A DNA stretch of 64,000 nt from Myxococcaceae bacterium (GTDB lineage: Bacteria; Myxococcota; Myxococcia; Myxococcales; Myxococcaceae): contig JAEUJQ010000059.1 of NCBI GenBank assembly GCA_016793095.1, forward strand, positions 62,001 through 126,000, given 5' to 3'. The position numbers and the translations under genes are program-made. Positions 14,176 to 21,545 of this stretch are shown here, piece after piece. How positions within the stretch are numbered: the stretch's first letter is position 1; each line of letters starts with the position of its first letter. The notes beneath the pieces are model-generated. The model was not told where the DNA came from. It made no database searches and worked only from the letters and a program-made list of their open reading frames with translations.

Positions 14176-14273
14176 GGACCCGAGGCGTAACCGCTTGCGC
14201 TCCGCGCGTCGAGGCCCGAGGGTGCAGAAGACCTTTCTTGACGCAGCGCTACTCCGCACGCTACCGGTACCCA

Positions 14274-17030
14274 ATGGCATCGAAGCCGCTCGTCGTCGTG
14301 GAGTCGCCTGCGAAGGCGAAGACCATCGGTCAGTTCCTCGGCAAGGACTACACGGTGATGGCCTCGGTGGGGCACGTCGTCGACCTGCCCTCGAGCGGCC
14401 TGTGCGTGGACGTCGAGAACGACTTCAAGCTCACCTACGAGGTGACGAAGCGCGACGTCATCGCCTCGCTGAAGACCGCCCTCAAGGACTCGAGCGCCCT
14501 CTTCCTCGCGACGGACGAAGACCGCGAAGGTGAGGCGATCGCCTGGCACCTCAAGGAGCAGCTCAAGCCGAAGGTGCCCACGCGCCGCATGGTGTTCCAC
14601 GAGATCACCCGTAAGGCGATCGAAGAGGCCGTCTCGAACCCCCGCGACATCGACATGGGCCTCGTCGACGCGCAGGAGGCGCGGCGCACGCTCGACCGGC
14701 TCTACGGCTACGAGGTCTCGCCGGTCCTCTGGCGCAAGGTGAAGACGGGGCTGTCGGCCGGGCGGGTGCAGTCGCCGGCGATCCGCCTCATCGTCGAGCG
14801 CGAGCGAGAGCGCATGGCGTTCCGCTCGGCGTCCTACTGGGATCTCGCGGCGAAGCACCCGACCCAGCCCGGCTTCGAGTCGCAGCTGTACTCGCTGCAG
14901 GGCCAGCGCGTCGCCCAGGGGCGTGACTTCGACTCCCTCGGCCAGCCGGTGGGCGCCGTCACCTGGCTCGACGAGGCGAAGGCGAAGGGCCTGCTCGAGC
15001 GGATCACCGGCAAGACGTTCACCGTCGCCTCGACCGAGAAGCGGCCCTACCGCAGCTCGCCGAAGGCGCCCTTCATGACGTCGACCCTGCAGCAGGAGGG
15101 TGGGCGCAAGCTGGGCATGAGCGCCCAGCAGGTGATGCGCGTCGCCCAGGGCCTCTACGAGCGCGGCTACATCACGTACATGCGCACCGACTCGACCAAC
15201 CTGTCCGAGACGGCGGTGAAGGCGGCCCGCGCGCAGGTGAAGGAGCTGTTCGGCGAGCAGTACCTGCCTGAGGCGCCCCGGGTGTACGCGAAGAAGACGA
15301 AGAACGCGCAGGAGGCCCACGAGGCGATCCGGCCGGCGGGCGAGACCTTCCGCCGCACCGACGAGCTGAAGGACGAGCTGAGCGCCGCCGAGCTGCGCCT
15401 GTACGATCTGATCTGGAAGCGCACGCTCGCGTGTCAGATGGCCGACGCCGAGGGCGAGACGGTGTCGCTCAAGCTCGCGGTCACCTCGAGCGCGGGTGAG
15501 CAGGTCGAGTTCAGCGCCTCGGGCCGCACCATCACCTTCAAGGGCTACCTGCAGGAGTACGTCGAGAGCACCGACCAGCAGGACGACAAGCGCGAGGACG
15601 ACGAGGCCCCGCTGCCCGTGCTGAAGGAGGGCGACGTGGTGCCCGTGTCAGCCCTCGAGGCGCTCGGCCACACCACGTCCCCGCCGGCCCGCTTCACCGA
15701 GGCGTCGCTGGTGAAGAAGCTCGAGGAGCTCGGCGTCGGCCGCCCCTCTACCTACGCGAGCATCCTCGGCACGCTGCAGGCGAAGTACGTCTGGAAGAAG
15801 GGCGCGGCGCTGGTGCCCAACTGGGAAGCGTTCGCCGTCGTCAACCTGATGGAGAAGCACTTCCACGATCTCGTCGATCTGCAGTTCACCGCCGAGATGG
15901 AGGAGGACCTCGACAAGGTCGCCGGTGGCGAGCGGGAGAAGACGAGCTACCTGAAGGAGTTCTACTGGGGCGACAAGAAGCACGTCGGGCTCGCGAAGCA
16001 GGTGAAGCAGAACCTCGACCAGATCAACGCCGCCGAGGTGAACTCGATCCCCATCGGGCCCGACCCGAAGAGCGGTGAGCTCATCGTCGTCAAGCCGGGC
16101 AAGTACGGCCCGTACTTGAAGCGTGGTGAAGACACCGCCTCGGTGCCCGACGCGCTCGCGCCCGACGAGATGACGGTCGAGAAGGCGCTGCAGCTGCTCT
16201 CGGCGCCCAAGGGCGACACGCCCGTCGGTCAGGATCCTGCGAGCGGCAAGAACGTGTACGTGAAGACCGGCCGCTTCGGCTCCTACGTCATGCTCGGCGA
16301 GCCGAGCGACGACGAGAAGCCGAAGACGGCGTCGCTCTTCAAGACCATGAAGCCCGAGACGGTGACGCTGGCGCAGGCCCTCGAGCTGCTCACGCTGCCG
16401 CGCACGCTGGGCACGGCGCCCGACGGCGAAGTCGTCACCGCGCAGAACGGCCGCTACGGCCCCTACCTCACGAAGGGCAAGGAGAGCCGCAACCTGGGGG
16501 TCGAGGCTGAGCCGAAGCTCCTCACCATCACGCTCGACGAGGCGCTCGAGATCTTCAAGCAGCCCAAGCAGTTCCGCGGCCGGGGCCAGTCGGCGAAGCC
16601 GTCGATCTCGAAGGGCGTCGATCCGGTGAGCAGCAAGGAGATCCTGCTCAAGGAGGGCCGCTTCGGCTGGTACGTCACCGACGGCGAGACGAACGCCACG
16701 CTGCGGCGCGGCGACACGCCCGAGGAGCTCACCAACGAGCGCGCGGCCGAGCTGCTCCAGGCGCGGCGTGAGTACATGGCTTCGCCCGAGGGCCAGGCCC
16801 GCGCGGCGCAGCGTGGCCAGAAGGCCGCCGCGAAGAAGGCCGCCAAGCAGGTGAAGGCCGCGCAAGCGAAGGCAGAGAAGGCCGCGAAGGCAGGCAAGGC
16901 GCCCGCCGCGAAGCCGGCGAAGGCCGCCGTCAAAGAAAAGGCGAAGCCTGCCGCCAGCGCGAAGGCGAAGAAGAGCGCGCCGAAGAAGGCCACGAAGGCC
17001 GACAAGAAGGCGCCGCGCAAGTCCGTCTGA
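14274..17030 (+). CDS. topA: DNA topoisomerase I
   Basis: 918 aa type IA topoisomerase that relaxes negatively supercoiled DNA. Toprim domain at the N-terminus (VVVESPAKAKTI; acidic triad region LFLATDEDREGEAIAWHL), active-site Tyr302 in YITYMRTDST, and the HEAIRP and GRPSTYASI motifs of the cleavage/strand-passage core. Instead of Cys4 zinc fingers the C-terminus has three or four repeats of the topoisomerase C-terminal type, each containing GRFGSYV, NGRYGPYL or GRFGWYV. It ends in a Lys/Ala-rich tail of about 90 residues resembling the basic tails of actinobacterial TopA, likely for DNA binding or processivity. Followed 16 bp later by the Nudix gene. Confidence 0.97.
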   Translation: MASKPLVVVESPAKAKTIGQFLGKDYTVMASVGHVVDLPSSGLCVDVENDFKLTYEVTKRDVIASLKTALKDSSALFLATDEDREGEAIAWHLKEQLKPKVPTRRMVFHEITRKAIEEAVSNPRDIDMGLVDAQEARRTLDRLYGYEVSPVLWRKVKTGLSAGRVQSPAIRLIVERERERMAFRSASYWDLAAKHPTQPGFESQLYSLQGQRVAQGRDFDSLGQPVGAVTWLDEAKAKGLLERITGKTFTVASTEKRPYRSSPKAPFMTSTLQQEGGRKLGMSAQQVMRVAQGLYERGYITYMRTDSTNLSETAVKAARAQVKELFGEQYLPEAPRVYAKKTKNAQEAHEAIRPAGETFRRTDELKDELSAAELRLYDLIWKRTLACQMADAEGETVSLKLAVTSSAGEQVEFSASGRTITFKGYLQEYVESTDQQDDKREDDEAPLPVLKEGDVVPVSALEALGHTTSPPARFTEASLVKKLEELGVGRPSTYASILGTLQAKYVWKKGAALVPNWEAFAVVNLMEKHFHDLVDLQFTAEMEEDLDKVAGGEREKTSYLKEFYWGDKKHVGLAKQVKQNLDQINAAEVNSIPIGPDPKSGELIVVKPGKYGPYLKRGEDTASVPDALAPDEMTVEKALQLLSAPKGDTPVGQDPASGKNVYVKTGRFGSYVMLGEPSDDEKPKTASLFKTMKPETVTLAQALELLTLPRTLGTAPDGEVVTAQNGRYGPYLTKGKESRNLGVEAEPKLLTITLDEALEIFKQPKQFRGRGQSAKPSISKGVDPVSSKEILLKEGRFGWYVTDGETNATLRRGDTPEELTNERAAELLQARREYMASPEGQARAAQRGQKAAAKKAAKQVKAAQAKAEKAAKAGKAPAAKPAKAAVKEKAKPAASAKAKKSAPKKATKADKKAPRKSV

Positions 17031-17046: not shown

Positions 17047-17769
17047 ATGAACGACGAGAAGGCGTTCCTCACCAGCTATCGCGCGAAGGACTACCCGCGG
17101 CCGTCGGTGACGGTCGATCTCGTCATCCTCACGATCGTCGACGCCCAGCTGCGGGTGCTGCTGGTGAAGCGCCGCGAGCACCCGTTCAAGGGGCAGTGGG
17201 CGCTGCCGGGCGGCTTCGTGCGCGTGGGAGAGAGCCCCATCGAGCAGGGCGAGGACCTCGACGACGCCGCGCGCCGCGAGCTCAAGGAGGAGACCGGGCT
17301 CGACCCGAGCCGCGTCTACCTCGAGCAGCTCTACACCTTCGGCAGGGCCGGTCGTGATCCCCGGCTCCGCGTCATCACCGTCGCGTACTACGCGTTGGTG
17401 CGCCCCGATCTCGCCCCCTTCGTGAAGGCCGGCGGCGACGCGACCGAGGCCGACTGGTTCGACGTCGCGCAGGTCGCGCGGCTGGGCCTCGCCTTCGATC
17501 ACCAGGAGATCGTCGAGAAGGCGCTCGAGCGCATTCGCGGCAAGCTCGACTACACGAACATCGCGTTCGATCTCGTGCCGGCGACCTTCACCATCCCCGA
17601 GCTGCGGCACGTCCACGGCATCGTGCTGGGCAAGCCGATGGATCCGGGGAACTTCCGGCGCTCGTTCAACCGGTGGCTCGAAGAGGGCCGGCTGGAGCAG
17701 GCGCCCGGCAAGCGCATCACCACCTCGAAGCCGGCCGCCGTGTACCGCTTCAAGCGCGAGCGCGACTGA
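17047..17769 (+). CDS. Nudix domain protein with winged-helix C-terminus (NrtR-like)
   Basis: 240 aa. Residues 20-150 are a Nudix hydrolase domain with the RELKEETGL core of the Nudix box intact. The loop before it is longer than usual: GGFVRVGE is separated from the core by a second GED. Residues 155-240 resemble the NrtR winged helix (FTIPELRHVHGIVLGKPMDPGNFRRSFNRW). NrtR proteins sense ADP-ribose through the Nudix domain and repress NAD genes; some family members keep hydrolase activity. GGAG precedes the ATG. Probably co-transcribed with topA. No obvious NAD operon lies next to it. Confidence 0.8.
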   Translation: MNDEKAFLTSYRAKDYPRPSVTVDLVILTIVDAQLRVLLVKRREHPFKGQWALPGGFVRVGESPIEQGEDLDDAARRELKEETGLDPSRVYLEQLYTFGRAGRDPRLRVITVAYYALVRPDLAPFVKAGGDATEADWFDVAQVARLGLAFDHQEIVEKALERIRGKLDYTNIAFDLVPATFTIPELRHVHGIVLGKPMDPGNFRRSFNRWLEEGRLEQAPGKRITTSKPAAVYRFKRERD

Positions 17770-20159: not shown

Positions 20160-21545
20160 ATGCACGCGCTCCTGGTGGGACGGTTTCACGCGGTGACGAA
20201 GGCGCAGGCGGCGTGGCTCGAGGGCCTGGCGAAGGAGCCGATCGATCGGGTCGTCTGCGTCGTCACCAGCGCCGACCACGCGGCGACGCGCCGAAACCCG
20301 CTGGAGCTCGTTGCCCGGGAGGCCATGCTCCGGCCCGCGCTCGAGCGAACCGGGAAGCCCTTCGATCTGATCCGCGTGCACGACATCCCCGACTCGGAGG
20401 CGTGGGTCTCGTACCTCGTCGAGCAGGTGAAGCAGCAGGCGGGCCGGGAGCTCTCGCCCCGGACGACGCAGGTGTACTCGGCGAACCGTGACGTGGACGC
20501 GTTGTTCGAAGCGGCCGGCTTCCCGGTGGTGGCGCAGGAGGTGAAGGGCCTCACGCCGCACGAGCTGGTCCAGCGCATCGTGGACGGGCGCGAGTGGAAG
20601 GCCGAGGCGTCGCCCGAGACGGTCACGGTCTACGAGCGCCCGGGCGTCATCGATCGGGTGCGGGCGATCTTCCACCAACGGCTGCTCAACGACGACGGCG
20701 AGCTGGGGCACCTGCGCGACTTCGCGAGCTACGGCGCGCAGATGGACGCGTCGCTGCGCCAGAAGCTCGAGGACCTCGTTCGCTGGGTGAAGCCGGGCAC
20801 CATCGTGGACAAGGGGTGCGGCACCGGGAAGCTGCTGGTCGAGCTGTCGAAGCTGTTCCCAGACTCGCGCTTCGCGGGCGTCGATCTCTCACGCGAGTTC
20901 CTGCGCCTGTGCGACGAGAACACCTACGCGACGGACGAGGTGACGCTCGTGTACGGGAACGTCATCGACGTGTGCCTGCCGCCGGGCTCGGCGAGCACCG
21001 TGATCTTCTCGTCGGTGATGCACGAGGTGCACTCGTACAACGGCTACCGCACGTCGGAGATCGACCGCGCGCTGGTGAGCGCCTGCACGGAGCTCGCGCA
21101 GGGTGGGCACGTGCTGATCCGCGACGGCGTCAGCCCCCCACCAGCAACGTGGCGGCTCGAGCTGCTCACGCCGCAGACGAAGGACACCTTCGAGCGCTTC
21201 GCGAAGGAGTTCCGGCAGGGGCAGGGGGTGCGCTTCACGCGGGTGTCGGACGGCGTCGTCGAGCTGTCGTCGCACGACGCGAACGAGTTCATCTGCAAGA
21301 AGGACTACCTGAAGAACTGGCACCTCGAGGTGAACGAGGAGTTCGGCCCGTTGACGCTGGCGGGGTGGCGCGAAGCGCTCAGCCAGGCAGGCTTCGAGCC
21401 TCTGCACCTCGAGGAGACCGTCAACCCGTGGATCGTGAGGAACCGCTACGAGGGCGCCGTGCGGGTGACCGACGCCGCGGGGAAGCCGCTGCCGTGGCCG
21501 GCGACCAACTTCGTGGCGGTCGGTCGAAAGCCGAAGCGCCCGTGA
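20160..21545 (+). CDS. NadM-like nucleotidyltransferase domain fused to a class I SAM methyltransferase
   Basis: 461 aa two-domain protein. Residues 1-160 follow the archaeal-type NMN adenylyltransferase layout: MHALLVGRFHAVTKAQ at the start, VVCVVTSADHAATRRNPL, and the late LTPHELVQRIVDGREW. The catalytic HxGH position reads TKAQ, so nucleotidyl transfer is doubtful. Residues 205-340 are a Rossmann methyltransferase with motif I VDKGCGTGKLL, FAGVDLS and a motif IV-like VIFSSVMHEVHSY. The C-terminal 120 residues may bind the acceptor. Either the N-terminal half binds a dinucleotide as a sensor or it shapes the acceptor site; the methyl acceptor is unknown. Confidence 0.75.
   Translation: MHALLVGRFHAVTKAQAAWLEGLAKEPIDRVVCVVTSADHAATRRNPLELVAREAMLRPALERTGKPFDLIRVHDIPDSEAWVSYLVEQVKQQAGRELSPRTTQVYSANRDVDALFEAAGFPVVAQEVKGLTPHELVQRIVDGREWKAEASPETVTVYERPGVIDRVRAIFHQRLLNDDGELGHLRDFASYGAQMDASLRQKLEDLVRWVKPGTIVDKGCGTGKLLVELSKLFPDSRFAGVDLSREFLRLCDENTYATDEVTLVYGNVIDVCLPPGSASTVIFSSVMHEVHSYNGYRTSEIDRALVSACTELAQGGHVLIRDGVSPPPATWRLELLTPQTKDTFERFAKEFRQGQGVRFTRVSDGVVELSSHDANEFICKKDYLKNWHLEVNEEFGPLTLAGWREALSQAGFEPLHLEETVNPWIVRNRYEGAVRVTDAAGKPLPWPATNFVAVGRKPKRP

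Follow-up and report, generated by a model that had tools for sequence, protein, structure and literature searches.

The window, which comprises 64,000 nucleotides of DNA from a member of the Myxococcaceae, harbors on its + strand a gene at 20160..21545 that runs from ATG to stop and codes for a protein of 461 aa, in agreement with the coordinates of the original prediction. The gene product is a fusion of a NadM-like domain and a class I methyltransferase. Residues 1-171 (20160..20672) make up a NadM-fold domain, a linker of low model confidence follows at about residues 172-193 (20673..20738), and the remainder (20739..21542) corresponds to a predicted class I SAM-dependent methyltransferase domain. 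A gene for an NrtR-like regulator, combining a Nudix and a winged helix domain, is located upstream on the same strand (17047..17769). A structure model of the fusion protein, built from 20 aligned sequences (the window protein and 19 relatives), had a mean pLDDT of 81.8 and a pTM of 0.69; linker residues 174-193 were modeled with pLDDT <50, so that the model leaves the relative placement of the two domains unfixed.

All Pfam matches of the fusion protein are confined to its methyltransferase half. Residues 1-160 match the NadM profile NF002243 with an E value of 1.6e-13 and 50.6 bits, which is short of the curated cut-off of 127 bits, and the NadM profile TIGR01527 is matched with an E value of 9.6e-9 and 35 bits (curated cut-off, 181.2 bits). 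In a search against PDB sequences, the N-terminal half matched 1f9a (MJ0541) with an E value of 1.8e-7. In the fold comparison of the model, residues 1-171 superposed on MtNadM (1m8f) with a Z score of 20.2 and an rmsd of 1.8 Å over 161 residues. The layout of an NMN adenylyltransferase, which had been proposed for this half, is thus recovered both by sequence (NF002243, 1f9a) and by fold (Z 20.2), and the predicted structure is that of NadM and not the different fold that had been considered as an alternative. As judged from profile matches and modeled fold, the N-terminal domain descends from a NadM-type NMN adenylyltransferase.

The catalytic motifs of this domain were counted in 22 full-length rows of the alignment, comprising the window protein, L003-L022, and L024; excluded from the count were L002, whose frame ends at 113 aa and contains one internal stop, the partial L023, and both PDB rows. 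The stretch GRFHAVTKAQ (residues 7-16, 20178..20207), the letters of which had been read correctly from the beginning, occupies the site of GRFxPFHxGH and has Gln in the place of MtNadM His19. Thr13 and Gln16 are invariant in 22/22 rows, converting HxGH to TxxQ, and both also occur in 15/15 rows of a set that takes in the most divergent members, G017 and G006; this invariance argues that the motif change is neither chance nor a sequencing slip. In PMC1249556, the adenylyltransferase superfamily motif is given as T/HxGH, so that a Thr in the first place of TKAQ is ordinary, and the telling changes are the replacement of Gly by Ala and of the second His by Gln. The claim of an altered HxGH motif is thus confirmed for its last residue, which is fixed as Gln, with the refinement that Thr in the first place is unremarkable.

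The damage extends further than the HxGH motif alone, since SGTxxR, whose loss had been overlooked in the original prediction, is represented by TPHELV (residues 132-137, 20553..20570). MtNadM Thr133 is replaced by His in 20/22 rows (H134 in the window protein) and by Ser or Val in the other two, while MtNadM Arg136 is replaced by Val or Leu in all 22 (position 137 of the window protein); the aligned SxTxxR columns hold Thr in 0/22 and Arg in 0/22 rows. At the site of Gx(D/N), the protein has SAN (residues 107-109, 20478..20486). The Gly of this motif is mostly Ala in the rows counted, and Asn109, equivalent to MtNadM Asn105, is retained in 21/22 rows. Several other pocket positions are also kept, namely the equivalents of MtNadM Arg11 (22/22) and of Arg47, Asp80, and Trp87 (21/22 each). 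In MtNadM, D80, W87, and N105 have roles in nicotinamide binding. The divergent member G017 lacks the equivalents of Arg47, Asp80, Trp87, and Asn105, and G006 lacks those of Trp87 and Asn105, indicating that the kept pocket is not universal.

Since TxxQ is fixed, SGTxxR is lost, and a NadD scoring above its curated cut-off is encoded on another contig of the same genome, the N-terminal domain is likely a pseudo-adenylyltransferase that has lost its activity. With respect to ligand binding, changes in the HxGH motif of an FMN adenylyltransferase were found to cost mainly kcat and hardly to affect the affinity for FMN (PMC3509593). Alternatively, the domain could still act as an adenylyltransferase, with TxxQ taking the part of HxGH and with NMN or another phosphate ester as substrate. 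The normal Thr in the first place, the retention of R11 and R47, and the remark in PMC1249556 that simple positioning of the substrates may suffice for archaeal NMNAT would all be compatible with activity; however, all 22 rows lack the second His as well as both Thr and Arg in the second motif, the H19A variant of E. coli NadD, in which the second His of the motif is changed, keeps 0.62% of activity (PMC1249556), and the separate NadD also speaks against it. We consider retained adenylyltransferase activity quite improbable.

Selection on the two domains was estimated with a Nei-Gojobori script from 10 sequences, using nine of the 45 pairs (those with methyltransferase identity >0.80, or a named pair). 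The dN/dS values were 0.15-0.51 for the N-terminal domain and 0.12-0.28 for the methyltransferase domain in the same nine pairs. In most pairs, the N-terminal domain is the faster evolving and less constrained of the two, and its identity is lower; nevertheless, it is under purifying selection and is no decaying relic.

The methyltransferase half scores above five Pfam cut-offs, among them that of Methyltransf_25 (E 1.5e-9, 38.8 bits, cut-off 27), and in the model it matches class I methyltransferase folds with Z scores of about 17. The SAM-binding motif I, VDKGCGTG (residues 216-223, 20805..20828), which had been described as intact, is indeed preserved and is invariant in the alignment of the relatives. 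Family profile and motif I thus point to a class I SAM-dependent methyltransferase with predicted methyl transfer activity. The best NCBIfam match is PRK06922/NF005379 (E 9.3e-20), a profile of 677 positions, but the score of 70.6 bits contrasts with a cut-off of 602, and the first 394 positions are unmatched. Mouse nicotinamide N-methyltransferase (5yji) is found among the fold matches at rank 50.

In a survey of 195 Myxococcota genomes, including that of the window, the close form of the fusion protein (at least 57% identity) was present in 23 genomes, again counting the window's own, and the NadM-like N-terminal domain in 25 when the divergent G017 and G006 are included, each time in the same gene as the methyltransferase. 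In G108 the fusion gene is split over two contigs, and G151 carries a copy with an internal stop. The profile of the methyltransferase identified one gene each in 38 of the 195 genomes, always fused, with 25 NadM-like partners and 13 partners consisting of C-terminal stretches (Nudix-type). Neither an unfused copy of this NadM-like domain, which with the same TKAQ and full activity would have spoken against the original interpretation, nor a stand-alone methyltransferase of this family, nor a genome with both architectures was found among these 195 genomes. On a tree of the methyltransferase domains, comprising 24 of the 25 NadM-type rows (G151 was left out), the 13 Nudix-type rows, and one from Bacillus, the NadM-type and Nudix-type sequences separate with full support, so the fusion partner differs by clade. 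As the NadM-type row G152 is a rough extraction only 24% filled and the Bacillus branch is very long, the tree was read for the separation of NadM-type from Nudix-type sequences alone.

Beyond the survey, a scan of contigs with peptide patterns, which were specific and would miss distant relatives, retrieved 21 loci, all titled myxobacterial. A stand-alone relative of the methyltransferase with 27% identity occurs in three Bacillus velezensis plasmid records, within a segment that is conserved among large plasmids (L111:6007-6831, L112:5968-6792), and a search started from the Bacillus protein gave a partial match from Streptomyces. A plasmid origin was rejected, as the search of plasmids yielded nothing beyond these matches. 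A viral origin was likewise dismissed, there being no relative among viral contigs or phages, as was a role as a defense system, since the PADLOC matches were to generic methyltransferases only. A NadM-like protein of G186 was also discarded as a relative, because it keeps HRGH and is a different protein; in this protein of 327 aa (L151:2804-3784), the NadM-like domain, with HRGH intact, forms the second half and is preceded by an uncharacterized first half.

All 13 Nudix-type proteins continue beyond the methyltransferase with a stretch that bears hallmarks of an ADP-ribose-pyrophosphatase-like Nudix, namely SPGG and an RxLxER where REUxEE would be expected, and then with a second C-terminal stretch matching no recognized fold. 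The first stretch had no Pfam match. A profile of four such stretches had its best PDB match at an E value of 0.024, and the ten matches listed were seven ADP-ribose pyrophosphatases, one NudK, and two phycocyanins, which tentatively suggests a resemblance to a degenerate ADP-ribose pyrophosphatase. One of the 13 proteins, that of G189 (1044 aa, L108:7057-10191), comprises an extra N-terminal Nudix domain above the Pfam cut-off, the methyltransferase, and the degenerate Nudix-like stretch; the extra domain is related to NUDT9 and TRPM2 (4e-18 and 6e-20, respectively), and its Nudix box is intact by reading. At the loci of Nudix-type genes that were inspected, no NAD-metabolism neighbors were seen by eye.

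The pairing of the methyltransferase with a NAD/ADP-ribose-enzyme-like partner in 38/38 Myxococcota members could also mean that the partner is a substrate holder, in which case NMN, NAD, or ADP-ribose would be bound by the N-terminal domain and would itself receive the methyl group from the methyltransferase. Two different partner types would suggest a shared ligand, and the fold match to nicotinamide N-methyltransferase would be in keeping with such a substrate; yet many unrelated methyltransferases outrank 5yji, and class I folds match one another broadly. We know of no methylated nucleotide of the NMN, NAD, or ADP-ribose kind, which counts against this explanation, and we regard it as unlikely.

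The product of the gene at 17047..17769 exceeds the Pfam cut-offs for both NUDIX (79.4 bits, cut-off 21.1) and NrtR_WHD (46.6 bits, cut-off 27), and matches PDB 3gz5, NrtR of S. oneidensis, with an E value of 1e-37. It also matches NF050029 (E 1.2e-54), with 185.4 bits as compared to a curated cut-off of 400 bits. Of the 23 close relatives, 20 have an NrtR-like gene on the same strand at most 3 kb upstream of the fusion gene, and the gap between the two is 5-21 bp in G107, G110, G072, and G070. The distance is 10 kb in G109, and in G148 and G018 nrtR is found on another contig. In the window, two opposite-strand genes, coding for an ECF sigma factor and a TPR/PEGA protein, lie between nrtR and the fusion gene; in G067 the intervening gene codes for a protein of 225 aa, a lipoprotein by eye, which has no Pfam match. 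Related nrtR genes are situated near nicotinate phosphoribosyltransferase-like genes in G060 and G094, and near genes for nicotinamidase and ribose-phosphate diphosphokinase in G018, indicating that this type of NrtR-like regulator is tied to NAD metabolism. A similar set of genes beside nrtR was seen in two genomes, at L148:2561-6984 and L147:3036-7436, consisting of a gene for a VWA protein and one for a protein called cysteine-hydrolase-like by eye (no Pfam match); the L148 set adds a kinase-like protein, which is below cut-off, and the outer gene is PP2C-like by eye only.

In the window, nrtR directly follows topA (14238-17030), and topA precedes nrtR in many relatives, so that the adjacency of nrtR and the fusion gene largely reflects one inherited block rather than 20 independent events. 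The link to NrtR and NAD might then be a chance of gene order, and the N-terminal domain a ligand-free structural or dimerization module surviving from an old fusion, to which its lower identity compared with the methyltransferase would correspond. Such a module is difficult to reconcile with the fixation of the motif changes, the retention of pocket positions, the purifying selection, and the separate Nudix-type partner of the sister clade, and we consider it the least probable of the explanations weighed here.

Both architectures carry domains of NAD/ADP-ribose enzymes, the main ones with ruined motifs, which, together with the precedent of NrtR, leads us to favor a gating role for the N-terminal domain. 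In the proposed mechanism, the class I methyltransferase would be one of a small family with ties to the metabolism of NAD and ADP-ribose. The N-terminal domain, which no longer has the motifs for ATP handling and catalysis (T/HxGH, SGTxxR) but retains the fold and some of the pocket, may bind a nucleotide of the pyridine or ADP-ribose type that it does not adenylylate; binding would then turn the methyltransferase on or off through coupling of the domains. That a nucleotide-binding pseudo-enzyme domain gates a NAD/ADP-ribose-linked methyltransferase in this way is a reading for and against which we see the chances as evenly balanced. The broader idea that a single methyltransferase core has recruited interchangeable sensors from two unrelated dead folds, one NadM-like and one ADP-ribose-pyrophosphatase-like, with methylation of some component of the cell answering to NAD or ADP-ribose levels alongside NrtR, is more tentative, and we would sooner expect it to fail than to hold. 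The fold, the fusion, and a nucleotide-related role, as originally suggested, are supported, and the link to NAD is strengthened by the NrtR-like neighbor and by the sister methyltransferases with their Nudix-type fusions. The original remark that no such protein was known as described agrees with the literature, as neither a NadM-methyltransferase nor a NUDT9-methyltransferase fusion was found described in searches of open-license publications.

If gating applies, the cellular NAD or ADP-ribose status would be linked directly to methylation in a single polypeptide, and NadM would join Nudix as a second NAD-enzyme fold that has been turned to sensing. With one methyltransferase family always paired, and with two kinds of partner, the question of the ligand can be tested directly.

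Among known proteins, NadM itself (MtNadM, 1ej2; MJ0541, 1f9a) resembles the N-terminal domain in its fold over 161 residues, in sequence, and at many pocket positions. Unlike NadM, the fusion protein has TxxQ for HxGH and TPHxxV for SGTxxR, scores below both curated NadM cut-offs, and is joined to a methyltransferase; on account of the two catalytic motifs and the two cut-offs, it is not a member of the NadM family. The bifunctional NadM-Nudix protein 2qjo (fold match, Z 16.6) likewise has a NadM domain joined to a second domain, whereas in the fusion protein the catalytic motifs are lost and the partner is a methyltransferase; Nudix domains are found here in a neighboring gene or in the sister clade, as opposed to the same protein in 2qjo. 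In TRPM2, the Nudix domain NUDT9H has been turned into an ADP-ribose sensor. NrtR, as described in PMC6800001, has a Nudix domain with undetectable hydrolase activity that answers to ADP-ribose. Should our interpretation be correct, the fusion protein would work like these other dead-enzyme sensors, in which an attached effector is steered by an NAD/ADP-ribose enzyme domain whose own activity is weak or gone, with the difference that its domain is NadM-like and its effector is a methyltransferase.
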